Origin: Caulobacter sp. 73W
GTDB taxonomy: Bacteria; Pseudomonadota; Alphaproteobacteria; Caulobacterales; Caulobacteraceae
Direction: 5' to 3'
DNA: 64,000 bases
NCBI RefSeq assembly: GCF_041021955.1
Contig: NZ_CP158375.1
Coordinates: 1,736,001 to 1,800,000, forward strand
Below are positions 246-16,563 of this stretch, piece by piece. Made by a program: the position numbers and the translations under genes. The notes beneath the pieces are model-generated. The model was not told the DNA's origin. It saw only the letters and a list, made by a program, of their open reading frames with translations, and ran no database searches. Position 1 is the first letter of the stretch. Each line of letters opens with the position of its first letter.

Positions 246-1823
246 TTACAGGTCGTGCAGACCCGGCCGGTGAGGCTCGACGACGAAAGTCTTCAAGGTG
301 CTGATCCTCCCGCCCGGGGCGCTGACCTTGTCGATCACCTTCAAGGTTGTCCGCCACTGATCAGGACCAACGTCGAAGACCTGGTAGCCCCTCTGCTGGT
401 TGTGAAGCTTCAGGTTCGGATTATGCCGCAGCAGCGGCGCCGACTTGGAAGCGTCCGCCGTTCCGTCCCCTTCCGAGGAGATCGACGTGGTCAAGAACTC
501 CGTCGCGGCCGCTCGGCCGGCCGGCTCCGCGTCACGGGCGGGCACCACACCGACGTAGTGGTTGTGCGCATCCCCGCTGGCCACGACCACATTGGTCAGC
601 CTGCGGGCCTCAATGGCCTCAACGAACCGACGGCGCGCCGCGGGGTAGCCGTTCCACGTGTCAGTAGATCGCGCGCTTAGACCGTTGGGGCCCTCGCGCA
701 GCATCGGCATCATCATCACCTGCTGGGCCACCAAGTTCCACCGGTGAGCCCCGCTCATACCCTTGGCGAGCCAAGCCTCTTGTTCAGCGCCAAGCACGGT
801 CGCCTGCTCGAAGTCTTCCGTCCGGCAAGGTCGGTCATCTGCGCTCATGCAAAGCTGGTCGGTGCGGTGGCTGCGAGTGTCGAGCACGTGCATGCGCACG
901 AGACGGCCATAGTCCAGTCGTCGGTGAAATCTCGCCCCGCTTAGTCGAGGAAACTGAGCGCGGCGCACCGGCATGTGCTCGTACCAGGCCTGCAGGGCGG
1001 CCATCTTGCGCAGGGCGAAGACCTCGGACGGCGTGCCGTCCTGGTCGATCTCCTGGACCCAGTTGTTGTCGACCTCGTGGTCGTCGAAGGAGACGATGAA
1101 GGCGGCCGAGGCGTGGGCGGCGATCAGCTCCGGGTCCGATTTATAGAGGGCGTACCGCCGACGGTACTGATCGAGGCTGTAGAGCTCCTGGCCAAGATGG
1201 GCGCGTGCGCGCACCCGCCCATGCTCGTCGGCGGTTCCGACCGGCCGGCGCGCCGTCGCCTCGTAGATGTAGTCGCCATAGTGGAAGACCGCGTCGACCT
1301 CCTCTTCCTGGGCCAGATGCCGATAGGCGTCGTAGAAACCTGATTCATAGTTTTGGCAGCCGGCCACCGCGATACGGACGTTGCGCGGCTCGGCGCCAGC
1401 CGCAGGGGCCGTGCGGGCCGTCCCCGCCGGGCTGGCTTCTCCCGCGCCCACCCGGAACCGATACCAGTAGCGCCGCGCCGGTTTCAGCCCATCGACCTCC
1501 ACATGAACCGCGTGAGCCAGTTCCGGCCGAGCGATGGCCTCCCCGCTCCGAGCGATCACGGCGAACCGCTCGTCCTCGGCCACCTCCCATTTCACCGTGA
1601 CCGGCCGCGGCCCCATGCCGCCGGCCTCGGCGAACGGCTTGGGCGCCAGCCGCGTCCAGACGACGAACCCGTCTGGCCAAGGATCGCCAGCGGCCACCCC
1701 AAGGGTGAACGGATAGCCGTCGATCTTGGCCTGAGCCCACACATCGCTTGCGCGGCCAAGACCGGTCAGGAGGATCAGATTGCCGCCGGCCGTGAGCAGG
1801 CGTCGACGATCAAGCATTGTCAT
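246..1823 (-). CDS. phoD: Tat-exported PhoD-family alkaline phosphatase/phosphodiesterase
   Basis: Predicted periplasmic or secreted metallophosphatase that releases phosphate from phosphate mono- or diesters. The 525-aa product starts with a twin-arginine leader (DRRRLLTAGG at residues 5-14, then a hydrophobic stretch ending near residue 31). A PhoD N-terminal beta domain covers roughly residues 35-140, followed by the catalytic domain with HYGDYIYE (181-188), FDDHEVDNNW (246-255) and ASGDAHNHYVG (415-425), the metal-binding signatures of PhoD enzymes, which use Ca and Fe. Length is normal for the family. A second possible start is Met3. The gene begins 17 bp after the stop of the upstream TonB receptor, so it is probably the last gene of the sigma/FecR/receptor unit and shares its induction. 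Natural substrate is not determined by sequence; nucleotides, phospholipid headgroups or teichoic-acid-like polymers are all possible. Confidence 0.9.
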   Translation of the reverse strand: MTMLDRRRLLTAGGNLILLTGLGRASDVWAQAKIDGYPFTLGVAAGDPWPDGFVVWTRLAPKPFAEAGGMGPRPVTVKWEVAEDERFAVIARSGEAIARPELAHAVHVEVDGLKPARRYWYRFRVGAGEASPAGTARTAPAAGAEPRNVRIAVAGCQNYESGFYDAYRHLAQEEEVDAVFHYGDYIYEATARRPVGTADEHGRVRARAHLGQELYSLDQYRRRYALYKSDPELIAAHASAAFIVSFDDHEVDNNWVQEIDQDGTPSEVFALRKMAALQAWYEHMPVRRAQFPRLSGARFHRRLDYGRLVRMHVLDTRSHRTDQLCMSADDRPCRTEDFEQATVLGAEQEAWLAKGMSGAHRWNLVAQQVMMMPMLREGPNGLSARSTDTWNGYPAARRRFVEAIEARRLTNVVVASGDAHNHYVGVVPARDAEPAGRAAATEFLTTSISSEGDGTADASKSAPLLRHNPNLKLHNQQRGYQVFDVGPDQWRTTLKVIDKVSAPGGRISTLKTFVVEPHRPGLHDL

Positions 1824-1840
1824 CAGTGGCTCGCCTAGGA

Positions 1841-4800
1841 TCAGAACCTGGCCCGAAAGCCAAGCGAGGTGGTCACCCCGTACTTTTGGTAGTTGTCGCC
1901 AAGGTCGGGGCTGAGCCCGTTGGTGTCGACGGTGCGCACGAAGGGGCGGTCGAACAGGTTCTTGGCGAAGAAGAAGACCTCCCAGCCATCGCGCAGTTCG
2001 TAATTGGCGCTGAGGTTGGTCTCCGAGCGCGCCTGGATGACCATGCCGTTGGCGTTGTCTGGCTTCTCGTCGGACCAGACGGTGTTGAGGTTCAGGCTCA
2101 ACCTGCCATGACGATAGAGGAGCGAGGCGGTCACCAGGTTCTTGGCCAGCCCCTCGACCAGCGCATCGGCGTCGTTGTGCGTGAACGAGCCGTTCAGCCG
2201 CAGCATGCCCCAGCCGTCCGGCAGGATGTCCAGGGCGCGGTTGAACTCCAGCTCCACGCCTCGGACGGTGACGGTGTTTTCCGGCGCCGAGCGGGTGGTG
2301 CGGAAGATGTAGCCGTCATAATCCCCGCCCCCATAGCCGAACTCTTCGGGGGTCAGATCCACCGACTGGAAGAGGCCTTTGATGCGGTTCTGAAAAAGGT
2401 TCACCGCGATCAGGCCGACCGGGTCGAAGTAGCGGACCAGACGGGCTGAAAAGTTATCCGACAGCTCTGGGCTCAGATTAGGGTTGGGCGCCGAGACGAT
2501 CCCCATGACCTCGTTGACCGACCACACGCCCGCCAGATTGTCGATGCCGGGGCGACGGATGGTGCGGCTGTAGCCAAGCTGCAGGTCGGTGTCCTCGTCG
2601 AAGGCGTACTTCACCGAGGCGCTGGGAAAGAAGTAGTCGTAACTGCCCTTGCGATCGACGCGGGGCCGGGACTCGTACTGATACTTCAGCCCTTCGATCG
2701 TGTTCGCTCGCCCCGTCGCGGCGGTCGCCGCGTAGCCGGCGGCCAGAACCTCGGCATAGGTGCGCGCATCCGGCTCCTCGGCGCGGGTCTTGGTCTGCTC
2801 CCAGCGAAGCCCCGCCCTGACCGTCAACTTGTCGATCGGCGTGGAAGTCGCCATCGCATAGGCTGCGTTCATGTCTTCTTCGAAGTGACGGCGGTTGGCG
2901 ATGAAGGCGGTGTAGTAATCGGCCGCGCTCAGAGAGGCGGCGAAGTACTGCGGATTTGTGCGGTAGAGCTCGCCGAGCGAATGAAGGTTGGGCGTGAAGA
3001 CACTCGCCGCACCCGACCGCGTGCGCAGGAAAAAGTCGTTCTCGTCGAAGTTCAGCTCGAGCGGCGACTGGTGATCGGCCCAGAAGGCGGACGCGGCCAC
3101 CGGACCTACATAATTGTACTTTTGACCTTCGCGCTCATTGCGAAAATCATAGACATTGCGGCCCAGCTTCGCGCCGCTCTTGAACGTCACCGGCATGTCC
3201 ACGATCGTGGTGTCCCAGGTGAAGTTCAGCGCCGCGCCCGACAGTTCGCTTCGCGCGTAACGCCCGTCGTTCAAGTAGATGGTGGGCCGCGCGTAGCTTG
3301 CCGGATCGGCCCAGTCGGCGCCCGTCAGCTGGGTCACCGTCCAGTCGAACCGGTCAAGCGCATTGCGCTTGGCCGAATACGATCCAGCCGCCTGCAATGA
3401 TCCGGCCGAATAGACCGAGCCGCGATAGCCCATCGGATCATAGCGGCTGGTTGATTCCGAATAGGAGGCCCAGCCATCGAGGCGATAGCTGTCGCCTTGA
3501 AGCTCGAACCTTGGATTTAGGGTCAGGCTGTCGCCGCGCTTGGCCACCGCCAGGAACTCGGTGTCGATCCGGGCGTTGGGATGGGTGGTGGTGAAATCGG
3601 CCAACGGATCGCCGGTGACCGCGCGTGCGCGATCCCCCGTCGTAAAGAGCCAGGAGCGCTGGCCCGACCAGGTGTCGGCCTCGTTGTAGAGGGCCGTCAG
3701 CGACAGGGTCAGGGCGTCGCTGGCGCGAAAGTCCAGGCTCAGCGAGCTGGCGCGGCGTTCGACCGTCTGGTTGATCTGCCGGGCGCGCATCGAGGTCAAA
3801 GTCACCGGCGCCGGGCTGGCGGCGGTTGGAACCTCGTTCCAGCCGGCGGTCATCATCTCGCGCTGGATATAGGCATTGGATTCGCTGAGGCTCACGACGA
3901 CGCCCAGGCGACGGTCGAAGAACACATCGGAATATTCGATCTGGGCGCTGGGTAGGATGCGGGGCTGGCGGCCATCGCCCTTGTCGCCCGGCCCGCCGCG
4001 ATAATCGTCCCAAAGGTCGTTCTGCGTCAGGCCGGAGATCTGGGCGATGATGCTGCGGCCCCGACGGTCGAAGGCGCGCTTGGTGCGCAGGTTAATGGTG
4101 CCGGCGGGCGCATTGGCGTCGACGTCGGCGCTGATTGTCTTAGAGATCTCGATGGCGTCGATGCTGCTCAGCGAGATCTGCTCGAAACTGAACCCGCGCG
4201 CATTGCTCACCGCCGCCCCGGCGTCGGCGCTGGCCAAGGCCACCCCGTTGACTGTGACCGAGGCGTAGTCGGACGGCAGGCCGCGCACCCGCACATAGCG
4301 CACCGTGCCGTCCAGAGCGTCGGAATCAACACCCGGCATGTTCTTGATGAACTCACCGACATTGCCTTCAGACACGTTGCCGAAGGCCTCCGAAGATAGG
4401 CTGTTGGTGATGTTCATCGATTGGCGCTGGCTCATGATCGCTCGCGCATCGCCGTCTCGCGCGGCCACGACGGTCAATTCCTCGACCGCGCCCGTCGTCG
4501 CCGTGCGCATTTCGATATCGCGCTCGATGGACTGGCCGCCGGCCAGCTCAACCATCACCCGGGCGTCCTGATAGCCGGCGTAGCGCACGAGAATCTCGAC
4601 CGGACCGGCCGCCACGCCGCTGGCGCGGTAGCCTGAGCCATCCTCATTTCCCGCCGCGCGCCAGGCTCCGTCGGCGCCGCGCACCATCACGTCGGCGTTG
4701 CGAAGGTACTCGCCGCTGGCGGGATCCAGGATGCGCCCGCTGACCGCGCCGACGCCGGCCGCGACCGGCCTGGTGGAGCGTAAGGTGAGCATCGAGCCGT

Positions 4801-5074
4801 TGTCGGAGGCGATGCTGAGCGGCGTGCCTTCCAGCAGTTGGCGAAGGGCTGCGCGGGTATCCATCTCGCCGATCACGGCGCGGGTTCGCACCCCGTTCAG
4901 GTCACGCGCCGGGGCGATGATCTGGAGCTGCGCCTGGCGGGCGAAAGCGGGCACGGCGGTCACCGCCGACTGGGCCGGGACATCGAACCGGCGCACCTGC
5001 GCATGGGCCTCAAGGCTGGCGCACACCACCGCCGCGGCGACGCCGCCGGCCAGGAAAGTCTTGTAGGAATTCAT
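1841..5074 (-). CDS. TonB-dependent transducer-type receptor with STN domain
   Basis: Outer-membrane receptor of 1077 aa that imports a substrate with TonB energy and signals its presence to FecR. The start chosen is the Met at 5074, preceded by a GGGG-rich ribosome site and followed by a Sec signal peptide (MNSYKTFLAGG..., cleavage near AHA-QV); an upstream in-frame Met at 5158 would add an unlikely hydrophilic tail. Order: STN (secretin/TonB short N-terminal) domain about residues 27-95, a carboxypeptidase-regulatory-like beta domain about 108-190, plug about 205-340 (ending DVDANAPAGTINL), then a long 22-strand-type barrel ending in GFRARF, with the terminal Phe typical of outer-membrane proteins. 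The STN domain marks it as a surface-signalling receptor, which fits the ECF sigma and FecR genes just upstream. The extra beta domain between STN and plug is common in Bacteroidetes SusC proteins and seen in some Caulobacterales receptors. Substrate unknown; PhoD downstream suggests a phosphorylated compound. Confidence 0.9.
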   Translation of the reverse strand: MNSYKTFLAGGVAAAVVCASLEAHAQVRRFDVPAQSAVTAVPAFARQAQLQIIAPARDLNGVRTRAVIGEMDTRAALRQLLEGTPLSIASDNGSMLTLRSTRPVAAGVGAVSGRILDPASGEYLRNADVMVRGADGAWRAAGNEDGSGYRASGVAAGPVEILVRYAGYQDARVMVELAGGQSIERDIEMRTATTGAVEELTVVAARDGDARAIMSQRQSMNITNSLSSEAFGNVSEGNVGEFIKNMPGVDSDALDGTVRYVRVRGLPSDYASVTVNGVALASADAGAAVSNARGFSFEQISLSSIDAIEISKTISADVDANAPAGTINLRTKRAFDRRGRSIIAQISGLTQNDLWDDYRGGPGDKGDGRQPRILPSAQIEYSDVFFDRRLGVVVSLSESNAYIQREMMTAGWNEVPTAASPAPVTLTSMRARQINQTVERRASSLSLDFRASDALTLSLTALYNEADTWSGQRSWLFTTGDRARAVTGDPLADFTTTHPNARIDTEFLAVAKRGDSLTLNPRFELQGDSYRLDGWASYSESTSRYDPMGYRGSVYSAGSLQAAGSYSAKRNALDRFDWTVTQLTGADWADPASYARPTIYLNDGRYARSELSGAALNFTWDTTIVDMPVTFKSGAKLGRNVYDFRNEREGQKYNYVGPVAASAFWADHQSPLELNFDENDFFLRTRSGAASVFTPNLHSLGELYRTNPQYFAASLSAADYYTAFIANRRHFEEDMNAAYAMATSTPIDKLTVRAGLRWEQTKTRAEEPDARTYAEVLAAGYAATAATGRANTIEGLKYQYESRPRVDRKGSYDYFFPSASVKYAFDEDTDLQLGYSRTIRRPGIDNLAGVWSVNEVMGIVSAPNPNLSPELSDNFSARLVRYFDPVGLIAVNLFQNRIKGLFQSVDLTPEEFGYGGGDYDGYIFRTTRSAPENTVTVRGVELEFNRALDILPDGWGMLRLNGSFTHNDADALVEGLAKNLVTASLLYRHGRLSLNLNTVWSDEKPDNANGMVIQARSETNLSANYELRDGWEVFFFAKNLFDRPFVRTVDTNGLSPDLGDNYQKYGVTTSLGFRARF

Positions 5075-5164
5075 AATCTCTGCCCCCACGTCGCCAAAGG
5101 ATGGACGCGACGTTCGAGGGCTAAGAGATTTGCGCGGGCGCTCTCCGCCACCCGTCACAAATCT

Positions 5165-6130
5165 TTATATGGGAGCGGCCGAGATGACGACCGTATCTCC
5201 ACGCCGCGTGACGCTGGCGCCAAAGACCGAGGCCGCCGCGCGGCTGAACCCGACGGGATCGTTGGCGGCGAAGAGGCCGGTGATCGGCTCATCGGCGAGG
5301 GCCGCATCGACGATCACGATGCGAGGATCGCTGTAGCGCGAGAAGGCGCGCGCCGCCTGCCCCAGGCTCTCGCCCTGGAAGGCGATCTTGCCCTCGCGCC
5401 AAGCAAGATCGCGCGTGACCTCGTCAGCCAGGACGCGCAAGGGCTTGGCCTCCCCCGCAACCAGCGCCATGCGGGTCTGGGGGCCCAACTGCAGACTGCG
5501 CCCAGCCCCGCCTGGCGCCGACACCCCGCCCTCATTGACCAGGATCTCGACAGGCGCATCGTCCAGCCTGCGCACCCGAAAGGCGCCGCCGACCGTGGAC
5601 AGCTGCGCGTCTCCAACCCCGATGACCAAGGGGCGATGAGGATCGCTCACCACGGTAAAATAGGCCTCGCCTTGCAAAAGCTCGATGCGACGTTGATCGC
5701 GGCCGTTGCGGATTTTGACGCGCGTCTGGGTGTTCAGGAGCACCGTCGAGCCATCGCCCAGCGGCACGAGCCGCATCTCGCCGCGCTCGGTGGCGTAGGC
5801 GCGCGGCGCCTGGAGGCCGAAGAACGCGGCGGCGCAGGCACCCGCGGTGCCGGCGGCGACCGCACCAGTCAGCAAGCCTCGTCGCGACACCCTTGGCTGC
5901 GACGCCCCGCCGAAGGCCGACGGCTCAAAGCCGTCCCCGAAGGCGGCGGCGGAGCGGCTGTTCATGGAGACGGCGTTGGCGCGCAGCATGGCGCCGGGAC
6001 AGCGCCGATCGCTCGCCAGCCAAGCGTTGAAAGCTGCATTGTCACTTGCGGCCAGCGGCCCACGATCAAGCCTGGCGGCCCAATCGGCCGCCGCCGCGTC
6101 AATGCTTTGACTTGTTTCGCGGTCGGCCAT
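5165..6130 (-). CDS. fecR-like: FecR-family anti-sigma factor/signal transducer
   Basis: Inner-membrane regulator of 321 aa that should bind the partner ECF sigma factor in the cytoplasm and contact the receptor STN domain in the periplasm. Residues 10-50 form the DUF4880 cytosolic domain (DWAARLDRG, FNAWLASDRR). Residues 82-106 form the single membrane segment, preceded by SRRGLLTG, a twin-arginine-like motif; FecR proteins have been reported as Tat substrates, which fits. A FecR beta domain follows (about 115-230) and then an STN-like C-terminal domain. The start at 6130 (MADRETSQS) is preferred over an in-frame Met at 6190 because the latter lies deep in the sigma gene; even so the two genes overlap by 32 bp, implying translational coupling. 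It is followed 90 bp later by the receptor gene. Confidence 0.88.
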   Translation of the reverse strand: MADRETSQSIDAAAADWAARLDRGPLAASDNAAFNAWLASDRRCPGAMLRANAVSMNSRSAAAFGDGFEPSAFGGASQPRVSRRGLLTGAVAAGTAGACAAAFFGLQAPRAYATERGEMRLVPLGDGSTVLLNTQTRVKIRNGRDQRRIELLQGEAYFTVVSDPHRPLVIGVGDAQLSTVGGAFRVRRLDDAPVEILVNEGGVSAPGGAGRSLQLGPQTRMALVAGEAKPLRVLADEVTRDLAWREGKIAFQGESLGQAARAFSRYSDPRIVIVDAALADEPITGLFAANDPVGFSRAAASVFGASVTRRGDTVVISAAPI

Positions 6131-6701
6131 GAAGGGCGGCGATCTCCGTTTGCCTAGGCTTAGAGGTTTGGGCGATGGCGTTTCCGCCATGCGCGGCCCA
6201 CGCGATCAAGAGGCGAACGCCGCGAGCGATGTGCTTTTCCACGGTATTCTCCGACAGCTTCATGCGCGCGGCGATCTCGCGCTGCGACAGGCCGTGGATG
6301 CGCCGAAGGGTGAAGGCCTGTCTGGTCTGACCTGGCATCGCGGCGATAACTTCCCCCAGGCGACGAAGGTTGTCGCGGGCGATCGCCGTCGCCTCCGGCG
6401 ACGGGGCGTCATCGGCGCCGGTGTCCATGATCAGGTCGTCCATGGCCTGGATGGAGACGATCCGGGCGCGCCTGATGTGGCGGACGACCAGCGAGTTGGC
6501 GACCTGAAAGAGATAAGCGCGCGGATAGGCGATGTCGGCGACCGTCTCGCGCTCCGCAAGGATCGTGTAGGTCTCCTGGACGATATCGTCGACTTCTACG
6601 CCCGTGTTGCGCTTACCGGCCAGCCACGAGCGCAAGGCCGGCTCGTGGGGCAGGATGCTGCGCATGAACCAGCGCGTTCGTTCTTCATCGACGGCAAACA
6701 T
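6099..6701 (-). CDS. ECF-type RNA polymerase sigma factor (FecI-like)
   Basis: 200-aa extracytoplasmic-function sigma factor. Region sigma-2 is visible around residues 20-85 (VEVDDIVQETYTILAER, PRAYLFQVANSLVVRHIRR) and sigma-4 around 115-170 (MPGQTRQAFTLRRIHGLSQREIAARMKLSENTVEKHI). The family directs transcription of the adjacent TonB receptor when the receptor senses its ligand. It is the first gene of a unit sigma - fecR - receptor - phoD. The C-terminal 25-30 residues are polar, of low complexity, and unlike core sigma-4. Self-regulation is not evident from the upstream sequence. Confidence 0.9.
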   Translation of the reverse strand: MFAVDEERTRWFMRSILPHEPALRSWLAGKRNTGVEVDDIVQETYTILAERETVADIAYPRAYLFQVANSLVVRHIRRARIVSIQAMDDLIMDTGADDAPSPEATAIARDNLRRLGEVIAAMPGQTRQAFTLRRIHGLSQREIAARMKLSENTVEKHIARGVRLLIAWAAHGGNAIAQTSKPRQTEIAALHGRPRNKSKH

Positions 6702-7148
6702 GGCGCAGCCTGAATCTAGGTCGATCCGGCCCCTAGCGCATTTGCGCAGACAGTTTGATGACGCTCGAACGCCAAGCAGGCGGCAACCAAGCGCAGGTGG
6801 CTGAGGCGGCTAGGCGCCCCGCGCACCACCGAGCTCGCTCAGATCACGCCGTGCGGACCAACGCCCGCCAAACGTCCTACGCCGCCAAGCCATCGAACTT
6901 CAGCACGCCGGGCGCGCCGATAAGACCCACGTCGGTGCGCCCGGTCGTTGAAGGCTATCAGCCATCATGCGTGGCCTTGCGGGGAATTGCCGGCGCGGAG
7001 GCCTGAGAATTTCGCCTGAGAGGCCGTATCGACCTCCCAGATTCGTAAACGCCGTGCCGGGGCGCATGCCCTCTGCGAGGACAATCTGCGGGCTAATCTT
7101 GAAGCTGCTGACCAGCCTTACCCTCCAAGGTGCTGACCGCCGACGAGA
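6702..7148. other. Intergenic region between ECF sigma gene and surface-protein gene
   Basis: About 450 bp without a supported gene. Short ORFs on both strands lack homologous-looking sequence or ribosome sites. It must hold the promoter of the minus-strand ECF sigma gene and the 3' end of the minus-strand surface-protein transcript. One small hairpin (GGCCT at 7000-7004 with AGGCC at 7021-7025) encloses two copies of GCCTGAGA. I see no riboswitch that fits a known consensus. Confidence 0.5.
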
Positions 7149-10100
7149 TCAACATGATAGGGGGGCGTTCCTTCGAAGCCCGAACTCGATGAAGTCGTGG
7201 GTCGCCTCGTAGTAGCGGCCCACCTTTGCCTCATATCCCGCCTGCATGATGTAGCCGATCATCGCAGCCTTGCCGCCAAGGTCGGAGCCTGCGAAGGCGT
7301 CGAAGTAGCCCTCTTGGCTGGTGATCCACGCGAGCGCCGCGTCGACGTTGATCCCCGCCGCGCGCGCGGCCTCAACGCCGATCACGAGGTCGTAAGCCAG
7401 GCGTACGGACGCCGCGAAATCCAGGGCGCCAAACTTGGCCTCAAAGGCGGCGCGGCCTTCCCCCTGGACGCCGAGATTGACCGCGAAGTTGATGAACCGG
7501 TTCACCTCGTTGAAGCGAGCATAATAGGGGTCGGTCAGATCGTTGGCGTTGGAGGGGCTATCGATCAGCCAAGTCATCCCGCCTTGGGTCGGCGTGCGAC
7601 CAGTGAAGAACTGGTAGGCCTGGAGGGCGACCGCCGAGGTTGGCGCCGAAAGCTCCACCACCCCGTCGATAAGCGCATCGCGGGTGATCGCGCCGGATTC
7701 AAAACGGGCGATCAGGGACGCAAGCCTGGCCGCCGCCTCGAAGGCGGGATTTGGGACACTTGAACCGTCGGGCAGAACGATGTTGCTGGTAATGGCCTTG
7801 GCGGAATTCAGCGCGAAACCGCAGACCGTCGTGAAGATGTCGCGGATTTGCGGCCCAGTGAGGACGGGCTCCTCAGGAGCCGGCGGCGGCGTCCATGCCA
7901 TATTGACGCTTCCCGAAACGCCATCGTTTCCGGCAAGGTCGGTGTAACCGCCAGCGACCACCGCCACCGAGCTGGTGTTCGCGGAGGCGGTGAAGACGGC
8001 CGAATAGACGCGCGAGTTGGCGGTGGGTGCAAAGCCGCTGAGCGATCCACCCGTGACCGACACATCAGCGACGCTGAACCCTTGGGGGTTTTCGTCGAAA
8101 GTGAAGGTGATGTTGGCGGTCTGGCCGGGCTCCAGGTCCGCCTGACTGGTGCTTACGGTCACCGAGGGCGCGACAGTGTCGAAGATATAGGCCGCCTCGA
8201 ACGCCCCGCCGTTGTTGCCTGCCGCATCGCTTACGCGAACCTTCAAGGTGTCAGACTGGGTCAGCTGGACGCCTGCCAGGCTCCAGGTGTTGGAGCCTGT
8301 GGACGCCGACGCCACGTCCCAGCTTGCGCCATCGTCCAGGCTGACTTCAACGTATTCGCCAGCGGCAAGGCTGGCGCTCAGAGTGCCCGACAGGGTTTGG
8401 CCTTGCGCACGGGTCACGAGGTCGGCGCCCGAGGCGCCCGTGTCGTTTGAAAAGGCCACTGCGACGCCCGTCGTCGTCGGCGCTGTCGTATCCAAGACAT
8501 AGGCGGCCGCAAGAGCGGCGCCCCCATTGCCAGCCAGGTCGTTCACCCGCACCCGAAACGTCCCCGAGCCCGATAGGGTGACGTCGCGAGACCAACTGGT
8601 CCCCGTTGTCGTGGCGGCCATCCAGCTACCGCCGTTGTCAAGCGAGACCTCGACGAATTCACCGGCCGCCAAAGGTACCGAGAGACTCCCAGTGAGGGTC
8701 TGGGCCGCTATACTTGTGATGAGATCGCTCGAGGAGACGCCGGCATCCTGGGATATCTGAACCGATTGCGGGCTTGAGCTGGGCGCGGTCGTGTCGAGCA
8801 CGTAGTCGCGGCTGAAGACTTCGCCGGGATTGCCCGCCGCGTCGACGACCCGAACCTGCAGGGTGTCAGAGCCAGTCAGGACGACACCGCTCAGGGTCCA
8901 GCCGGTTCCGGCGGCGATCGCAGTCGCCCAGCTGCCGCCATCGTTAAGCGAGACTTCGACGTGCTCACCCCCTGCAAGCGTGGCCGATAGCAATCCCGAG
9001 ACGGTCTGCGTCGCGGTCTTGGTCACAAGATCGGAGGGGTTCGAGCCGGTGTCGCTGGAAAACACGACGGACACCGCCTTGTTTGTCGGCGAGGTGGTGT
9101 CCACGAGCACGCCGCTAAGCCCGCCGATGTTGTTCAGCGTCAAGGCTGCGGCGTTGCCAGCCGTGTCGCGGATCGTGCCGCTGTTGAGCGCGATGGAACC
9201 ACCGAGGGCGACGCCGTTGGTGTCTGCATCGCCAGATTGAACCGTATAGCGGAAGACGAGCGCGCTGGTCCCGCTGCCGCTGACGTAAGTCGCCTGACGC
9301 GTCCCGCCGATATCAAGCGTCAAAGACAGGGCCGGCGTGCCGTTCGTGGTGTCGACCGTGACCGCCTCGTTGAAGTTCACGGTGAAGTCCAGCGAACTGC
9401 CCGCGCGGTAGCTTGAGTTTGCGGGGACGATTACCGATGTGGCGGCAGGAGCGGTATGGTCGAGTGTGTAGCTTTGGCCGCTCGTGAAGCCGCTAGCGAT
9501 GGCCCCTCCGCTGGAGGCGGCGATGCCTGTGCCGCTCGATTTTAAATCCAGTCGAAGAGTGCCGTCGCCCGAAACCGACCCGACGGTGACGGTGTATACG
9601 CCGCCGCTGCCGGTGACGTTGTTGATGACGCCGTCGGCCGTTCCTGTTGCTGTGAGGACGAAATCGCCCGCGTCTACGCCGGTTACGGACTGGTCGAAAG
9701 TCACAGTGTAGCTGGCTGACGTCGCGTTGGTCACCTCGGCGCCGACACGTTGGATGGATTTGACGTACGGCCGACCATCGACAAGTACGTTTGCCGTCGA
9801 GCCGACATTGTTCAGCGTCAGGACGGCTGCGTTTCCGACAAGATCGGTGAGAGTGCCGTTTGTCGCCATCTCAACGATGGTCACGCCCGTCAGGTCGAGC
9901 CCGGTGGATCTGACGGTGTAGGTGAAGGTGAGTGAAGAACTTGTACTTAGAAGAGCGTCGAGGGTGGCGTAGGCGGAGCCGCTTGAATCGAGGCTGAACG
10001 TCAAAAAAGGCCATTGGCCCCCATACTGGACCGGCTCATCGAAGTTCACGGTGAAGGCAAGCTCGTCGCCGGTGCGATAGGTGCCATTCTGAGGAGCCGT

Positions 10101-10448
10101 TACACTGGTGACCTTTGGAGGGGTCCGATCAATTGTCCAAAAGTCCCCTGACTGCATCGACACGCCCGCCACCGGCAGCGTGCCCGCGGTTGTAACGATG
10201 TCGGTGCCGTTTTTCAGCTCGAGCCCAAAGGTCCCATCCGCAGTGGCGGTGATCGGTACGATCCAGACCCCTGGCCCGTCGCCGGAGAGCGGTGTTGGGG
10301 TTCCGATCGTGGCGCTTCCGGTGCCAAGCAAGGCGAAGTCATCAGCGCTGACATTAGATACCGCCTCACCAAAGTTCACATAGAACTGGACGGAGTTTTG
10401 GTTGTTCGTCTGCTGATGCGCTTGCATTCGAACGATCGTCACGGCCAT
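7149..10448 (-). CDS. Giant Ig-repeat surface protein with C-terminal RsaA-N/SapA-C-like anchor domain
   Basis: 1099-aa extracellular protein with no Sec or Tat signal, so type I secretion is the likely route. Residues 1-862 are a chain of about eight beta-sandwich repeats of at least three types: units with NGTYRTGDELAFTVNFDEPV and a later LVGNAAVLTLNN signature; three consecutive units ending AGNxGxxF...YVLDTTAP; and one with PGQTANITFTFDENPQGF. Residues 863-1099 form a helical domain (AYQFFTGRTP, NANDLTDPYYARFNEVNRFI) that resembles the RsaA N-terminal region, which binds the LPS O-polysaccharide, and the C-terminal attachment region of the Caulobacter protease SapA. The inferred role is an adhesin or S-layer-associated protein held on LPS. 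The last 237 residues are about 76% identical (hand count 167/220) to those of the protein at 12586-16563. It ends with a Cys. No RTX GGxGxD nonapeptides were seen. Specific function unknown. Confidence 0.75.
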   Translation of the reverse strand: MAVTIVRMQAHQQTNNQNSVQFYVNFGEAVSNVSADDFALLGTGSATIGTPTPLSGDGPGVWIVPITATADGTFGLELKNGTDIVTTAGTLPVAGVSMQSGDFWTIDRTPPKVTSVTAPQNGTYRTGDELAFTVNFDEPVQYGGQWPFLTFSLDSSGSAYATLDALLSTSSSLTFTYTVRSTGLDLTGVTIVEMATNGTLTDLVGNAAVLTLNNVGSTANVLVDGRPYVKSIQRVGAEVTNATSASYTVTFDQSVTGVDAGDFVLTATGTADGVINNVTGSGGVYTVTVGSVSGDGTLRLDLKSSGTGIAASSGGAIASGFTSGQSYTLDHTAPAATSVIVPANSSYRAGSSLDFTVNFNEAVTVDTTNGTPALSLTLDIGGTRQATYVSGSGTSALVFRYTVQSGDADTNGVALGGSIALNSGTIRDTAGNAAALTLNNIGGLSGVLVDTTSPTNKAVSVVFSSDTGSNPSDLVTKTATQTVSGLLSATLAGGEHVEVSLNDGGSWATAIAAGTGWTLSGVVLTGSDTLQVRVVDAAGNPGEVFSRDYVLDTTAPSSSPQSVQISQDAGVSSSDLITSIAAQTLTGSLSVPLAAGEFVEVSLDNGGSWMAATTTGTSWSRDVTLSGSGTFRVRVNDLAGNGGAALAAAYVLDTTAPTTTGVAVAFSNDTGASGADLVTRAQGQTLSGTLSASLAAGEYVEVSLDDGASWDVASASTGSNTWSLAGVQLTQSDTLKVRVSDAAGNNGGAFEAAYIFDTVAPSVTVSTSQADLEPGQTANITFTFDENPQGFSVADVSVTGGSLSGFAPTANSRVYSAVFTASANTSSVAVVAGGYTDLAGNDGVSGSVNMAWTPPPAPEEPVLTGPQIRDIFTTVCGFALNSAKAITSNIVLPDGSSVPNPAFEAAARLASLIARFESGAITRDALIDGVVELSAPTSAVALQAYQFFTGRTPTQGGMTWLIDSPSNANDLTDPYYARFNEVNRFINFAVNLGVQGEGRAAFEAKFGALDFAASVRLAYDLVIGVEAARAAGINVDAALAWITSQEGYFDAFAGSDLGGKAAMIGYIMQAGYEAKVGRYYEATHDFIEFGLRRNAPLSC

Positions 10449-10629
10449 GAGCGCATTCCCCCCAGTCTGGTTGGCATCGGGCGCCTGGCAAGTCGAACAC
10501 AGCGTCGCGTTACAAAAGCCCCCTTCGATAGCTAACCGATCGCGCCGCGGTATTCACGCCCCAATTGGAGATGGGGCGTACGGCGGCGGAAAGGGGACAA
10601 GCGGCGCCGGTTTCACGCTGGATGAATAG

Positions 10630-11040
10630 CTACGCCGTGCGGAAGGGGTCGGGCGGGATGCGGGCGATGACCTTGATCTCAAAATCAAAGCCCGCCAGCC
10701 AGGTGACGCCCACCGCCGTCCAGTTGGGATAGGGCTCGATAGGAAAGACTTCGCTCTTGACCTTCATCACCACCGCAAATTGATGCTTGGGATCGGTGTG
10801 GAAGGTCGTCACATCGACGATGTCATCCAGCCCGCATCCGCCAGCCTTCAGTGTCGCCTCCAGATTGACGAAGGCCCTGCGCACCTGAGCCTCGAAGTCA
10901 GGTTCGGGCGAGCCGTCCTCGCGGCTGCCGACCTGCCCGGAGACAAAGAGCAGGTCGCCCGATCGGATCGCCGCCGAATAGGTCTGGGCGGCATAGAGAT
11001 CCTGCCTGCCGGCGGGGAAGACTGCGTCGCGTTGGCCCAT
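10630..11040 (-). CDS. RidA/YjgF/TdcF-family protein
   Basis: 136-aa member of the RidA family, which hydrolyses reactive enamine/imine intermediates or serves related ring-deaminating roles. The start at 11040 (MGQRDAVFPAG) follows an AGAAGGACG ribosome site; an upstream in-frame start at 11157 adds a basic low-complexity tail and is rejected. Family features visible are LLFVSGQVGSREDG, a central helix RRAFVNLEATLKAGGCGLDDIVDVTTF and the C-terminal PNWTAVGVTWLAGFDFEIKVIARI. The canonical C-terminal catalytic Arg-Val-Glu segment is not obvious (GFDFEIKVIAR occupies that place), so this may be a divergent Rid subgroup without the archetypal deaminase activity. It stands alone between two surface-protein genes; I see no operon partner. 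Confidence 0.85.
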   Translation of the reverse strand: MGQRDAVFPAGRQDLYAAQTYSAAIRSGDLLFVSGQVGSREDGSPEPDFEAQVRRAFVNLEATLKAGGCGLDDIVDVTTFHTDPKHQFAVVMKVKSEVFPIEPYPNWTAVGVTWLAGFDFEIKVIARIPPDPFRTA

Positions 11041-11357
11041 GGGTCGTCCTTCTCTGATCGCTGCGAGATGCGGTGATGCGCAGGTAACGCGGCGGCGACG
11101 GGAAGGTTGATGCCTGATCTGGCGAGGCGCTGGTTTCAGAGGCGGCTTCGATTGCACGCCTACGCAGACTAGCGTGCGGCTTCGCCTACAACTCCAGCCT
11201 TTAGCCGCGATGCGCTGCCGCCGGACTAGGGTTGGAGGTCACTCCCATCGCCTTCATGTGGCGACCCACACCAGTAAGCGGTGCGCCCGCTCGTGGGTGG
11301 AGCTTGCATCGCCCCGGCGACCCGATCGTTTGATCAGGACGATCAGGGAGACCAAGC
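11041..11357. other. Divergent promoter region
   Basis: 317 bp between the start of the minus-strand RidA gene and the plus-strand anchored-protein gene. It must hold both promoters. No coding potential or notable repeat was recognised. Confidence 0.4.
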
Positions 11358-12059
11358 ATGAAACTGGACCCGTCACGGGCGATCGGAGCGTTCGGCGCGG
11401 TGGCGCTTTGCGGCGCGTGCTGGTTGGCCATCTCCGCCCTTGCGCCAAGCAAGGCGTCCTTCAACGAGATCGACGTCCAACGCATCAATGTGCGCGAGCC
11501 GGACGGAACCTTACGGATCGTCCTGGCTGGAAGCCAGCGGATCGGCGGACTCGTCGTGGAAGGCAAGGAGTACCCTCACCCGAGCCGCACCCAGGCTGGT
11601 CTGATCTTCTTCAATGACGAGGGCACCGAGAACGGCGGCCTGGTCTTCGATGGCAAGCTGGTCGACGGCAAACCCACCAATACGGGGCATCTGTCGTTTG
11701 ATCGCTGGCGACAGGATCAGACGCTCTATTTGCAGTCTGTCGAGGACGGGACCCGTCGCCGCGCGGGCGTGTTTGTCCAAGACAGGCCCGACCGGCCTTT
11801 GGACTTCGCCTCGCTGGAACGCATCCGCGCCATGGAGACCGGCAAGGCCAAGGACGCGGCTTATCGCGCCGCCGGCTTCGACGAGAGGGCTCAGAGGGCG
11901 TTCTTGGGTCGCGACTTCGACAACTCGTCCCAGCTGGTCTTGCGCGACGCCGCGGGCCGGCCGCGCCTGCGTCTGCGCGTAGAGGCGCAGGGCGAGGCGA
12001 GCATTCAGTTCCTGGACCAAACCGGGAGGGTGACCCGCACGGTTACGCCTACGGGCTGA
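11358..12059 (+). CDS. Hypothetical membrane-anchored periplasmic protein
   Basis: 233 aa. Residues 9-29 form one hydrophobic segment (AIGAFGAVALCGACWLAISAL) that is an uncleaved anchor or signal peptide; the rest is soluble and presumably periplasmic. The body has repeated beta-rich modules around FNEIDVQRINVREPDG, LVVEGKEYPHPSR, GLIFFNDEGTENGGL and LVLRDAAGRPRLRLRV; the last resembles the first in pattern (in each, a self-describing residue run of the type V.EPDG.LRIVL), suggesting an internal duplication. I recognise it as a conserved hypothetical type without a known function. The ribosome site GGGAG precedes the ATG. It is monocistronic as far as I can tell. Confidence 0.7.
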   Translation: MKLDPSRAIGAFGAVALCGACWLAISALAPSKASFNEIDVQRINVREPDGTLRIVLAGSQRIGGLVVEGKEYPHPSRTQAGLIFFNDEGTENGGLVFDGKLVDGKPTNTGHLSFDRWRQDQTLYLQSVEDGTRRRAGVFVQDRPDRPLDFASLERIRAMETGKAKDAAYRAAGFDERAQRAFLGRDFDNSSQLVLRDAAGRPRLRLRVEAQGEASIQFLDQTGRVTRTVTPTG

Positions 12060-12585
12060 CCGCCTCAACCAGGCCTCCATCGGGCTTCGACGCGCCAGTC
12101 GGCCGCGCCGTCAGATCCTCGCAATAGCCAGTCGCAACCGGGCCGAGGCCGATGGCCCGATCCTAGCCTATCTGGACGCTCCCATGAGCGCCCCACCGAA
12201 CCCATGATCGAACGCGAAGAGCTTCTGACGAGCGGCCACGTCGCAACGCCGTCGGCTGCGGACCCTTTCGCCAACGCACTCGAATTCCAACGTTACCTCA
12301 TTTTGAGTAACTGGCCGCATTTGGCCAGATGAGCGCGGCCGCTATGAACAATCTCTACAGCCCAAACGAGTGGAGGAATGGGATCCTTTCATCTGAAGGT
12401 CCTTGTTGCGTCTCCTAGCCGACGTACCGAACAGTCAAGCGCCCCTAGGATGCAAGTCGGCCGGCTAGGCCGAGAGCTTCAATTCTCAAAGCTTCACACG
12501 ACCTTCCAAGGACCGACGGGTCCGCTCCCCGATGCTTCGGCGCGATGTCTCCGATCGCTGATCGCGCCCACCAGGAACTTCGCCC
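12060..12585. other. Intergenic region upstream of second Ig-repeat surface protein
   Basis: 526 bp. It holds one doubtful short ORF (12204-12332) and, near its end, two neighbouring small hairpins: GTTAC (12293-12297) with GTAAC (12307-12311), then CTGGCC with GGCCAG around 12311-12328. The remaining 250 bp before the 12586 start must contain the promoter and leader of the surface-protein gene. Nothing else recognised. Confidence 0.4.
12204..12332 (+). CDS. Doubtful 42-aa ORF
   Basis: A short ATG-started frame (MIEREELLTSGH..., ending NWPHLAR). Its ATGA overlaps the stop of another open plus-strand frame that reads ...EADGPILAYLDAPMSAPP, a junction that resembles translational coupling, so this could be the decayed end of an older two-gene unit. 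There is no clear ribosome site and no recognisable family. Its 3' end lies in the hairpins described for the region. Treat as a possible remnant. Confidence 0.2.
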   Translation: MIEREELLTSGHVATPSAADPFANALEFQRYLILSNWPHLAR

Positions 12586-15500
12586 ATGGCCGCCCTCGCC
12601 ACCACAGTGACCACCCTCACATTCAACGCCGACCGCGGGATCTCCAACGTCGACCGCATCACAAGCGTCGCGGCTCAAACGATCAGCGGAACAATTAGCC
12701 CGGCCTTGGTAGGCGACGAGCGCGTCCAGCTGTCCTTCGATAACGGCGCCAACTGGGCGCCGACGACCGGCGGGCCGACCAGCTTTTCGACGACAGCCAC
12801 CTTGGCAGGGGGATCTCACGCCATCCTGGCGCGCGTCGTCAACGGCGTGGGTGAGGAGGGTCCCATTGAGAGCTTCGCCTACACCCTCGATGGCGTGATC
12901 CCCGCCATCGCTGGGACGATCGTGCCTCCCGCCGGCAAGACCTATGGCGTTGGAGAGACGCTAAGCTTCACCGTGACGTTCGACGACAATGTCTACTTCG
13001 CCGGCAATGACAGTACCCTGGAGCTAACGATCGGCGTCGCCCCCCGCACAGCCACATTCGCTGGAACGGCTGGTAGATCGATCACCTACAGCTACGTGGT
13101 CCAACCTGGCGACCTTGACACCGATGGGATCGCCATCCGGGGGTTATCGCTCGGAAGCTCCACCATCCAAGACCGCGCTGGCAACAACGCTGATCTCAGT
13201 TTGGCCGGGCATTTGCCATCTCTGGCCGGCGTGCGGGTCGACGCCATCGCCCCCGCCGTCAGCGGCAATATAGCCGTGCCGCCCAATGATACCTACCGCG
13301 CGGGAGAGATCCTGTACTTCACGGTCACGTTCAACGACAACGTCGTCATTACGGGAAACGACAGCACCCTTGGCCTAGACATAGGCGGCATGGCGCGCAG
13401 CGCCGCTTACCATTCCAAAACGGCAAATTCGATCATCTACGCCTACACCGTTCAGGCCGGAGACAGTGACGCCAACGGCATTACGATCGACGCGATTTCG
13501 CTTGGCGGCACGACGATTCGCGATGCGGTTGGCAACAACGCCGTCCTGTCCCTGACCGGCCATCTGCCCTCGACGGCGGGCGTGCTGATCGACACCACAG
13601 CACCCGTTGTGAGCGGCAATGTGAGCGTGCCGGCGAACGCCACCTACGTCGCCGGCCAGCAGCTCAATTTCACCGTGACCTTCGATGAGAACGTCAACGT
13701 CACGGGAAACGACAGCGTGCTTTGGCTGGTCGTCGGCCAGGATCCGCGCGCCGCCACGTTTGTGGACGCGCTCGGCAACACCATAAGGTACAGCTACACG
13801 GTGCGACCGGGTGATCTGGACGCCGACGGAATTGCGCTCGGCGGCGCCATCACACTCAACACCACGACGATCCGCGACGCTGCTGGCAACGACGCCAATC
13901 TATCCCTCGTCGGTCATGCGCCATCTTTGGCGTCCGTTCGCATCGACGGCAAAGCGCCCGGCGTCGCCTCGGTGAGCGCCCCTGTGGAGGGGCGCTATAG
14001 CCAGGGCGCTTTACTGCTCTTCACCGTGACGTTCGACGAGAACATCACAGCCTCAAACTCCGCAAGCACGCTTGGCCTCGACATCAACGGCGCGTCGGTG
14101 AGCGCTGTTTTCGCTGGATCCACCGCAAACTCGATCAGCTATCGCTATTCTGTCCAGGCGGGCCAAGAGGATCTGGACGGCATCGAAATCACCGGCATCT
14201 CCCTGAATGGCTCCACCATCCAGGATGCGGCGGGCAATAACGCCAACCTCTCACTCACGGGACGCCTGCCTTCGCTATCGGGCCTCATCATCGACGCCAA
14301 ACCGCCGACCGTGAACATCAGCTCAAGCGCAAGCCAGCTCAAGCAGGGCCAAACCGCCACGATCACCTTCACCTTCAGTGAGGAGCCGATAGGCTTCCAG
14401 GCCAGCGACCTGGAGGTCGCTGGAGGGACCTTGAGCGCGCTGTCGGGGTCCGGAACGGTCTACACCGCGACATTCACCCCCACCGATGGCCTCAATGCGG
14501 GTAGGGCCGCCATCTGGATCGCGGCGGGTCGCTTCTTCGACGCCGCCGGCAACGCCAGCCTGGCCGACAGCTCGCCCGCGATCGACTACGACACCCGAGC
14601 GCCGTCGGCGCCGACCCTCGCCTTGGCGGCCGGCGCCGATACAGGCCTCCAGGGCGATGGCGTAACCGCCAACAACCGGCCAACCTTTGTAGGCGTTGCG
14701 GAGTCCGGCTCGACAGTCACCCTCTATGACGGCCAGGACAACGTGATCGGGTCGGGAACGGCGGTCGACGGCGCGTTCGCCATCGCCCCCGTGGTCGCGC
14801 TTGGGCAAGGCTCGCACACCATCAGCGCCCGGGCGGTCGACCCCGCCGGAAATGAATCGTCCGTCAGCAGCGGCCTTGCCGTCACCATCGACTATACGCC
14901 GCCAAACCTGGTCATCACCAGCAGCGTCGATCGCCTCAAGATCGATGAGACCGCGACGATCACCTTCACCTTCGACGAGCCTGTCGAGGGCTTCACGCTC
15001 GCGGACATCGGCGTGATCGGCGGACAGCTAAGTGATTTTACGGCGCAGGCCGGGGGGCGCATCTTCACAGCCCAGTTCAGACCAACCGCGGATCTGAACG
15101 CTTCGACCGCGCAAATCACGGTCGGGGCCGGCTCTTACATCGACGTCGCGGGCAACAACGGGGGATCGGGCCACACCCCGGCCCTGACCTTCGATACGCG
15201 CGCTCCCGACGCGCCGGCGGCGCCAAACCTGGACGCCGCCAGCGATACGGGGCCCTCCAATAGCGACAACATCACGTCCGACAGGACGCCCACCTTTGTC
15301 GGCTCGGCCGAGGCGGGCGCCACCGTCACCCTCTATTCGGGCGCCGATGTCATCGGGACGGCCGTCGCCACGAACGGAGCCTGGTCGATCGTCAGCGACA
15401 CGCTCGATCCTGGCGTCCACCAGATCAGCGTCGCCATCACCGACGCCTTCGGAAACGAGGGTCCCCGCGGGCCTGCGCTGGACGTCGAAATCCGAGCCAA

Positions 15501-16563
15501 TAGCGCCCCGACCGGTTCGGTCATCATCACCGGATCACCGACCGTCGGTCAGAAGCTCGAGGCCGCTAGCACTGTGGCCGATGCCGATGGGCTTGGGACC
15601 ATCACCTATCAATGGCGCGCGGGCGGGGTCGATCTTATCGGAGAGACGGGCGCCAGTCTGATCATCACTCCGGACCATCTGGGCAAGGCCATCAGCGTCG
15701 TGGCCCGATACGTCGATGACTACGGCTCCCCCGAGGCGGTGTCCTCCGCCGACACGGCGGCGGTGACCACCCCGGCGCCGCCGACCACCGAAGAGCCGCC
15801 GGTACAGCCGCCGGCGCCCGAATTCACGCCGGGCGAGATCCGCGACGCCTTCGCCGCGGCCGCGGGATTGCAGCCCAACTCGCCCAAGGCGACCGCGCCG
15901 ACCATCACCCTGGCCGATGGGTCCGTGGTGGCCAATCCCGCCTACGAGACGGCGATGAAGCTGGCCGGCCTGATCGCCCGCTTCGAAGCTGGGCTGATCA
16001 CCCGCGACGGCCTGATCGACGGCGTCGTAGACCTATCGGCGCCCACCTCCGGCGTGGCGCTGTCAGCCTATCAGTTCTTCACCGGCTCGACCCCGTCCGC
16101 GGCGGGGATGGCCTGGCTGATCGACAGCCCAGCCAACGCCAACGACCTGACCGACGCCTACTACGCCCGCTTCAACGAGGTGAACCGCTTCATCAATTTC
16201 GCGGTCAGCCTGGGCATGGAGGGCGAGGGCCGCGTGGCGTTCGCGGCGAAGTTCGGCGCGCTGGATTTCCAGGCCTCGGTGCGAGCGGCCTATGACATGG
16301 TCATCGGTCTGGACGCGGCGCGCGCGGCGGGGATCAACGTCGATGCGGCCCTGGCCTGGATCGCCAGCCAAGAGGGCTATTTTGACGCCTTCGCCGGCTC
16401 GGACCTGGGCGGTAAGGCGGCCATGATCGGCTACCTCATGCAGGCCGGCTTCGAAGCCAAGGTCGGCCGCTACTACGACGCCAGCCGGGGCTTCGTGGAA
16501 GACACCTTCGACGGGACGCCTGCCTATCAGGTGGATCTGGTGGGTGGTCAGCATCTTGGCTAG
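12586..16563 (+). CDS. Giant Ig-repeat surface protein with C-terminal RsaA-N/SapA-C-like anchor domain (second copy)
   Basis: 1325 aa with no N-terminal signal. Residues ~5-100 form one beta unit of the same type as the triplicated units in the 7149-10448 protein. Residues ~105-570 hold four tandem Ig-like units with recurring TVTFDENV and AGNNANLSL signatures. Residues ~575-985 alternate two other Ig-like types (GQTATITFTFSEEPIGF; STVTLYDGQ/ATVTLYSGA). Residues ~1000-1060 form an ITYQWRAGG-type unit, followed by a Pro/Glu linker (TTEEPPVQPPAPE). Residues 1080-1325 are the anchor domain (AYQFFTGSTP, NANDLTDAYYARFNEVNRFI), 76% identical to the other protein and clearly related to the LPS-binding N-terminus of RsaA. 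Inferred role: long, rod-like surface protein docked on LPS, exported by a type I system encoded elsewhere. Ligand unknown. A hairpin terminator candidate follows the stop codon. Confidence 0.77.
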   Translation: MAALATTVTTLTFNADRGISNVDRITSVAAQTISGTISPALVGDERVQLSFDNGANWAPTTGGPTSFSTTATLAGGSHAILARVVNGVGEEGPIESFAYTLDGVIPAIAGTIVPPAGKTYGVGETLSFTVTFDDNVYFAGNDSTLELTIGVAPRTATFAGTAGRSITYSYVVQPGDLDTDGIAIRGLSLGSSTIQDRAGNNADLSLAGHLPSLAGVRVDAIAPAVSGNIAVPPNDTYRAGEILYFTVTFNDNVVITGNDSTLGLDIGGMARSAAYHSKTANSIIYAYTVQAGDSDANGITIDAISLGGTTIRDAVGNNAVLSLTGHLPSTAGVLIDTTAPVVSGNVSVPANATYVAGQQLNFTVTFDENVNVTGNDSVLWLVVGQDPRAATFVDALGNTIRYSYTVRPGDLDADGIALGGAITLNTTTIRDAAGNDANLSLVGHAPSLASVRIDGKAPGVASVSAPVEGRYSQGALLLFTVTFDENITASNSASTLGLDINGASVSAVFAGSTANSISYRYSVQAGQEDLDGIEITGISLNGSTIQDAAGNNANLSLTGRLPSLSGLIIDAKPPTVNISSSASQLKQGQTATITFTFSEEPIGFQASDLEVAGGTLSALSGSGTVYTATFTPTDGLNAGRAAIWIAAGRFFDAAGNASLADSSPAIDYDTRAPSAPTLALAAGADTGLQGDGVTANNRPTFVGVAESGSTVTLYDGQDNVIGSGTAVDGAFAIAPVVALGQGSHTISARAVDPAGNESSVSSGLAVTIDYTPPNLVITSSVDRLKIDETATITFTFDEPVEGFTLADIGVIGGQLSDFTAQAGGRIFTAQFRPTADLNASTAQITVGAGSYIDVAGNNGGSGHTPALTFDTRAPDAPAAPNLDAASDTGPSNSDNITSDRTPTFVGSAEAGATVTLYSGADVIGTAVATNGAWSIVSDTLDPGVHQISVAITDAFGNEGPRGPALDVEIRANSAPTGSVIITGSPTVGQKLEAASTVADADGLGTITYQWRAGGVDLIGETGASLIITPDHLGKAISVVARYVDDYGSPEAVSSADTAAVTTPAPPTTEEPPVQPPAPEFTPGEIRDAFAAAAGLQPNSPKATAPTITLADGSVVANPAYETAMKLAGLIARFEAGLITRDGLIDGVVDLSAPTSGVALSAYQFFTGSTPSAAGMAWLIDSPANANDLTDAYYARFNEVNRFINFAVSLGMEGEGRVAFAAKFGALDFQASVRAAYDMVIGLDAARAAGINVDAALAWIASQEGYFDAFAGSDLGGKAAMIGYLMQAGFEAKVGRYYDASRGFVEDTFDGTPAYQVDLVGGQHLG

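Follow-up and report, generated by a model that had tools for sequence, protein, structure and literature searches.

Two long genes encoding proteins with immunoglobulin-like (Ig-like) repeats, P0001 and P0002, were analysed in a window of 64,000 nucleotides from Caulobacter sp. 73W (contig NZ_CP158375.1, positions 1,736,001 to 1,800,000), the whole stretch of DNA considered here. Both proteins end in a domain related to the N-terminal domain of the surface layer (S-layer) protein RsaA (Pfam RsaA_NTD, PF19198), hereafter referred to as the dock. This one docking module, with the fold of the RsaA N-terminal domain and almost always placed at the C-terminus, is common to 29 proteins of the genome. 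We consider it quite probable that these are exported by an RsaD-like system and anchored to lipopolysaccharide (LPS), with their N-terminal ectodomains renewed at the dock. The same dock that holds the protein armour of the cell appears also to hold a varied set of surface proteins on its sugar coat.

Open reading frame (ORF) calling and translation confirmed both genes as given in an earlier note on this DNA, P0001 (L023 of the family) at 7149-10448 on the minus strand, encoding 1099 residues, and P0002 (L022) at 12586-16563 on the plus strand, encoding 1325 residues. They are divergent, and their spacing, put at 2.1 kb in that note, measures 2,137 bases. The dock of P0001 occupies residues 863-1088 (7185-7862, minus strand; Pfam match at residues 937-1087) and that of P0002 residues 1085-1325 (15838-16560, plus strand; Pfam match at residues 1154-1320). 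The RsaA_NTD profile, the curated cut-off of which is 27 bits, scored 150.9 bits (E 4.2e-44) on P0001 and 157.2 bits (E 4.8e-46) on P0002. Among PDB sequences, the C-terminus of P0001 matched RsaA (6t72) at an E-value of 4.1e-31, all three entries listed up to an E-value of 0.1 being RsaA. An AlphaFold model of the P0002 dock (residues 1080-1325, with the 29 docks of this genome as the alignment) reached a predicted local distance difference test score of 93.5 and a predicted template modelling score of 0.89, and a Foldseek comparison of this model with the PDB returned RsaA chains alone at E-values up to 0.001 (6t72, E 4.2e-13, template modelling (TM) score 0.78). Both docks are assigned by these matches to the RsaA N-terminal domain family, and that of P0002 is predicted to have its fold. 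A viral origin of the fold was also considered and rejected, the viral library giving no Foldseek match at E-values up to 0.001. The NCBIfam model of SapA matches P0001 and P0002 with 115 and 114 bits, in the C-terminal part alone; as these scores lie far below the whole-protein equivalog cut-off of 1200, neither protein is SapA. The likeness of the C-terminal module to the N-terminus of RsaA and the C-terminus of SapA, which had been pointed out in the earlier note together with a proposal to search for it, is thus borne out by the profile, by comparison with solved structures and by the predicted fold.

The two docks resemble each other far beyond chance, being identical at 159 of the 212 aligned residues (75%), which makes the description of them as near-identical, based on a count of 167/220 by hand, too strong. 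The ectodomains are built from Ig-like repeats, Big_12, Big_13 and Big_5 in P0001 (7884-10448, minus strand) and Big_12, Big_13, Big_6 and Big_5 in P0002 (12586-15822, plus strand). They were held to be unlike arrays, which is correct for the order and number of the repeats; both are nevertheless Big_12/Big_13 Ig-like arrays with about 30% identity over 832 aligned columns. Further, the dock most like that of P0001 in this comparison belongs not to its neighbour P0002 but, by a small margin, to L021, a paralogue 1.6 Mb distant (166/212 identical). Since the ectodomains are related and the P0001 dock is nearer to that of L021, the window pair is not a clean case of an anchor duplicated with a swapped ectodomain, and this explanation was not upheld for the pair.

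The genome, which is a single contig of 4,007,162 bases, contains 29 RsaA_NTD matches, one per protein and all above the cut-off, and the gene count suggested in the earlier note thus establishes the family of 'stalk plus LPS dock' proteins envisaged there. In 27 of the 29 proteins the dock is C-terminal or nearly so, with at most 28 residues following the match in 26 and 50 in L011; in the other two, L016 and L020, it is found near the N-terminus. A similar placement was observed in 28 dock proteins from 20 chosen stretches in 16 other genomes of the family Caulobacteraceae, searched with a profile built from the docks of this genome, where 26 of the 28 have no more than 13 residues after the dock and two carry it near the N-terminus. 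In the proteins examined, the dock is therefore C-terminal as a rule, and the RsaA design is the exception. The 29 genes span 66,342 bases in total; 14 of them lie between 1.69 and 2.03 Mb, and 12 gaps are shorter than 25 kb against 4.7 expected at random placement (p 0.0005).

The ectodomains of the family differ widely, as judged from Pfam matches. They include Ig-like arrays in four proteins (P0001, P0002, L026 and L027), RTX repeats alone in seven, Calx-beta with RTX repeats in one, FG-GAP repeats in two, PATR repeats in three, cadherin repeats with phage collar domains in one, a beta-helix just below its cut-off in one and M10-type metalloproteases in three (L001 and L011, and L008 through the serralysin C-terminal and SapA models), while seven, including L016 and L020, have no further match at E-values up to 0.001. 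The protein of 1681 residues at L034:4108-9153 combines phage tail collar domains in three stretches with cadherin repeats and the dock. PATR repeats, which are typical of autotransporter passengers, stand on the dock proteins at L035:11273-14794, L038:6067-9582 and L048:9539-13198. Three glycine-rich dock proteins, two of them adjacent, have ectodomains devoid of Pfam matches (L045:8937-11723 and L042:9470-10537), and a protein of 247 residues (L049:9499-10242, start codon uncertain) consists almost of the dock alone and might act as a competitor or a spacer.

Docks are also common to proteins that are otherwise unlike. The RTX protein L004 and the FG-GAP proteins L006 and L010, the genes of which are separated by 560 kb, are 93.6-94.5% identical in their DNA over some 656 columns, the identity between L004 and L006 (94.5% over 656 columns) being confined to the dock. 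The shared stretch runs from about 38 residues ahead of the Pfam match to the end of the gene, and on removal of the docks neither DNA nor protein similarity was detected between L004 and the other two at an E-value of 1e-3. On this sequence evidence, docks have clearly been exchanged between unrelated ectodomains in L004 as against L006 and L010, probably by recombination or gene conversion. Likewise, the dock of the PATR protein L021 is 77-78% identical to those of P0001 and P0002, and outside the dock only short matches of 35-62 columns are seen, at its upstream edge. In a tree of the docks, starred clades mix ectodomains (Ig with PATR, Ig with cadherin, FG-GAP with RTX), the support being limited to nine starred forks among 27, with ten open and many weak.

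The earlier note had remarked that no type I transporter lies near the pair and had looked to a distant exporter, and the genome agrees with this: none of the 60 ABC-transporter matches listed for it falls inside the window, and the only PrtD-type ATPase of a type I secretion system above the cut-off (773 bits against a cut-off of 510; the next best 218) is encoded at 1,899,142-1,900,761 of the genome, about 147 kb from P0002. The same locus contains genes for an HlyD-type adaptor (above cut-off), a TolC-type protein (216 bits, just below the TIGR01844 cut-off of 225), a GDP-mannose 4,6-dehydratase (above the gmd cut-off), a DegT aminotransferase, two glycosyltransferases and Wzm/Wzt-like ABC proteins (below the NCBIfam cut-offs). 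The O-antigen bound by RsaA contains N-acetyl-perosamine, according to passages of the study of the RsaA-LPS interaction (PMC6978808). The DegT enzyme of this locus is probably the perosamine synthase. Also in the locus is the RsaA-like L016, residues 3-550 of which align with residues 3-545 of RsaA. L016 fits the S-layer design of RsaA, an N-terminal dock followed by a lattice-type part, whereas P0001 and P0002, with C-terminal docks and ectodomains matching Big families, do not. The short RsaA-like protein of 677 residues in the exporter locus (L035:6257-8290, minus strand) is the probable S-layer protein of the species.

As to distribution, PF19198 was found in 29 of 299 sampled genomes of the family, in five of 22 genera, and in a class-wide sample, which held few members of the family, in one of 385, namely the present genome. 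The genus is Caulobacter, since all 103 of the 200-base words sampled from locus L106, of genome G150 in this genus, recur in locus L068 of Caulobacter segnis FS. Within the genus, 24 of 75 Caulobacter genomes have RsaA_NTD matches at E-values up to 1e-6 (dock-positive genomes), with 29, 27, 22, 20, 17, 12, 11, 10, 10, 8, 8, 7, 7, 6, 6 and 6 matches, four matches in each of six genomes and three in each of two, these counts including drafts in which one gene may be split. When the 75 genomes were searched with the ATPase of the locus, 18, all dock-positive, gave matches of 70-100% identity (at least 905 bits), and the rest did not exceed 44% (476 bits); the same 18 score at least 764 bits on the PrtD model. 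Close exporter orthologues thus occur in 18/24 dock-positive and 0/51 dock-negative genomes (Fisher p 1.4e-12, ignoring relatedness). DegT matches of at least 600 bits show a similar pattern (21/24 against 0/51; p 9.6e-16, ignoring relatedness), although at E-values up to 1e-80 five dock-negative genomes match as well, with 43-61% identity. If only genomes with a completeness of 90% or more and a contamination of 5% or less are counted, the exporter is present in 18 and the DegT enzyme in 19 of the 20 that are dock-positive. In the passages available of a comparison of the Caulobacterales, rsaADEF is attributed to the C. crescentus-segnis clade and to scattered members of Phenylobacterium, together 7.8% of the species of Caulobacteraceae (PMC12700997), a figure that agrees in scale with the distribution of the dock. 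One draft of 30 contigs, G077, has four dock matches and is devoid of a PrtD-type match, of a DegT orthologue and of a strong RsaA-like match, so that either the locus has been lost or the assembly has a gap there.

The residues of the dock bear on what it may bind. Passages of the RsaA study describe the calcium loop as residues 77-100 and the O-antigen pocket as stabilised by calcium via aspartates (PMC6978808); as these passages name no residue, D83, D90 and D93 of the loop were chosen here as markers. Both window docks retain aspartate at all three positions, as do ten of the 29 docks in all, while eight retain two and eleven none, mostly having NNLNS where DLTD stood. Calcium dependence through D83, D90 and D93 is therefore not general.

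The eleven docks with all three aspartates replaced favour an alternative in which the fold has been kept and the function changed, so that many docks, above all those of this class, bind another envelope polymer (capsule or some other polysaccharide) or have no ligand at all, and some of the genes, that of P0001 among them, are decaying copies. Decay would be in keeping with the C-terminal tail of P0001, where the ORF ends in ...EFGLRRNAPLSC, out of frame with respect to its close relatives L021, P0002, L062, L068/L106 and L070. When the three frames of this DNA are compared (7118-7177, minus strand), one of the others encodes FEGTPPYHVDLVGGQHLGG, nearly the tail of L021, and this conserved tail is in frame in L106/L068 (counted as one gene), L062 and L070. 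Either a genuine lesion or a fault in the assembly could account for the slip in the last codons (7118-7190); with its tail broken, the export of P0001 itself is doubtful. The four dock matches of G077, standing alone in that genome, point in the same direction. However, eighteen residues are invariant across the 29 docks and one profile fits 24 C-anchored tails, on which it was trained. Of the 28 docks sampled from chosen stretches of other genomes, 25 belong to the class devoid of the aspartates, as counted from the loops, although this sample favours high-scoring matches. One member of the class, the L004 dock, is predicted to fold like the RsaA domain, its model matching RsaA chains alone at E-values up to 0.001 (6t72, E 4.0e-12, TM score 0.73-0.75). 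The class also includes the SapA-like protease L008 (500 bits on the SapA model), and SapA is an LPS-associated protein. A change of function on this scale is therefore regarded as unlikely.

Of the nine proteins scored with the SapA profile, the four highest (L008, L004, L001 and L002) all belong to the class devoid of the loop aspartates, with the reservations that L008 and L004 owe part of their score to regions outside the dock and that L011, with two aspartates, exceeds L020, with none. A bolder proposal, put forward only tentatively, divides the docks into a calcium-gated class with aspartates (RsaA-like) and a class lacking that calcium loop (SapA-like), both belonging to a general non-covalent display on LPS. 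A single exporter would serve dozens of proteins, and recombination at the dock would bring in new ectodomains. If true, there would be two pools of surface proteins that differ in the conditions of their attachment or in its depth within the O-antigen.

The docks might alternatively serve mainly as S-layer inserts, joining the RsaA lattice through contacts between anchor domains, in the manner of minor S-layer components, rather than binding the O-antigen independently. An RsaA-like protein, L016, is indeed encoded in the genome, and the RsaA N-terminal domain is described, in the passages available, as oligomerising along the O-antigen (PMC6978808). Of the RsaA contact pair Asp30-Lys142, however, Asp30 is found in 0/29 docks and Lys142 in 7/29, position 30 being less sure because it is at the margin of the aligned RsaA fragment; the residues in these columns are A and L in P0001 and A and M in P0002. 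That the pair is mostly not kept speaks against a lattice role and shows that the docks do not merely copy RsaA, and C-terminal docks with very different ectodomains are unlike lattice parts. This alternative is accordingly considered improbable.

In the reading preferred here, that of independent docking on LPS, each dock protein would lack a Sec signal and leave the cell through the single RsaD-like type I secretion system detected. The dock would fold in extracellular calcium after export and bind perosamine-type O-antigen non-covalently, as RsaA does through a pocket that, in the passages cited, is stabilised by calcium (PMC6978808). The N-terminal ectodomain, be it an Ig array, cadherin, RTX, FG-GAP, beta-helix or metalloprotease, would point outward, beneath or through the S-layer, and serve as an adhesin, spacer or enzyme. 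Recombination at the dock would renew the ectodomains, so that the surface set could vary with no alteration of export or anchoring. No Sec- or Tat-like N-terminus was visible in P0001 and P0002 in a hydropathy scan and on reading by eye, and none of the 29 N-termini looks by eye like a Sec signal, L005 having the highest hydropathy. A profile of C-terminal tails was trained on 51 C-anchored tails, leaving out L011 and P0001, and compared with a background of 1,133 ORF tails, with L006 and L010, which share their last 60 residues, counted once. The profile is shared by the 24 C-anchored tails of this genome that formed part of its training; P0001 scores 4.0 bits and the best unrelated tail 6.8 bits.

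Several findings weigh against this reading. The tail profile missed the C-termini of four N-anchored members, L020 (1.3 bits) falling within the background and the other three not being among the best 60 listed; as the model of the C-anchored tails finds its own training tails and does not recognise these C-termini, it reveals no secretion signal common to all members, and the idea of such a signal was rejected. P0001 lacks the in-frame tail, and all three loop aspartates are replaced in the eleven docks mentioned above. The curated PrtD cut-off is passed by 61 of the 75 Caulobacter genomes, 18/24 dock-positive and 43/51 dock-negative. A PrtD-type exporter as such, being commoner in dock-negative genomes, was therefore rejected as the partner of the dock, which tracks the close exporter orthologues instead. 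The cut lines for exporter and DegT orthologues were drawn after the scores had been seen, the counts of co-occurrence are not corrected for relatedness, and the genome-wide search covered the PrtD type among the families of type I secretion ATPases. Finally, six of the 24 dock-positive genomes (G077, G126, G245, G257, G680 and G682) have no PrtD-type match at E-values up to 1e-80, four of them being 76-87% complete and G077 and G126 being drafts rated fully complete, and a DegT orthologue was not found in G077, G245 and G682.

Among other features, a distant PrtD-type exporter, 38-44% identical to that of the present genome, occurs in 43 of the 51 dock-negative Caulobacter genomes. Within the window, an ORF of the RidA/L-PSP type (10630-11157, minus strand) and an ORF with no Pfam match at E-values up to 1e-4 (11358-12059, plus strand) lie between P0001 and P0002. 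Adjoining P0001, genes for an extracytoplasmic function sigma factor, a FecR-like regulator, a TonB-dependent receptor and a PhoD-like phosphatase stand in a row (246-6701, minus strand) and constitute an ordinary regulated uptake cluster.

The RsaA_NTD domain and its C-terminal use in SapA are already known, the former being present in Pfam and SapA in NCBIfam, and the attachment and secretion of SapA have reportedly been studied by Ford in 2007 and Gandham in 2012. The family may therefore be viewed, as a possibility of some weight though short of an even chance, as a lineage-specific expansion of known RsaA/SapA-type secreted proteins with no new mechanism, a view that overlaps with independent docking on LPS and does not exclude it. 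On the other side, the scale (29 per genome), the general C-terminal design, the sharing of docks between ectodomains that are unrelated and the division into two loop classes appear to be new: no published listing of the dock family, and no description of these features, was found in the full text of open-licence papers. The comparison of the Caulobacterales, in the passages available, treats the presence of rsaADEF and mentions no wider dock family (PMC12700997).

The dock proteins were compared with the closest known systems. The window docks share with RsaA of Caulobacter crescentus (PDB 6T72) the domain family, the predicted fold and the aspartates at positions 83, 90 and 93, and the exporter, the O-antigen-type genes and an RsaA-like gene stand in one locus of this genome; they differ in their C-terminal position, in an identity of about 40%, in carrying Ig-array ectodomains in place of the lattice-forming part and in not keeping the contact pair. 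With SapA they share a C-terminal RsaA_NTD-like dock recognised by the SapA profile, whereas the protease domain is lacking in P0001 and P0002 and the scores remain far from the equivalog level. In type IX secretion of the Bacteroidetes, a Gram-negative system with diverse LPS-retained cargo and a C-terminal module, the C-terminal domain is reported, in the passages available, to be cleaved off and the cargo joined covalently to A-LPS by PorU (PMC5445135). P0001 and P0002 have no match listed to that C-terminal domain, or to SLH or CWB2, in Pfam at E-values up to 1, and their dock is itself the proposed anchor. The SLH and CWB2 families of Gram-positive bacteria resemble the dock family in that one non-covalent polysaccharide-binding module carries many surface proteins, and differ in that the module is unrelated, the polymer is another and the proteins are exported by Sec. 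By analogy, the dock system would work like SLH/CWB2 display while not being a member of those families. The use of one dock 29 times in a genome with very different ectodomains, together with 3 to 29 matches in 24 of the 75 genomes, therefore suggests that the O-antigen serves as a shared display scaffold comparable to the Gram-positive walls carrying SLH and CWB2 proteins. Such a modular dock would give these bacteria a simple way to change the content of their surface, and suggests a ready-made module for surface display; in this model genus, one exporter gene and one O-antigen gene make a short list on which the entire surface set can be tested.

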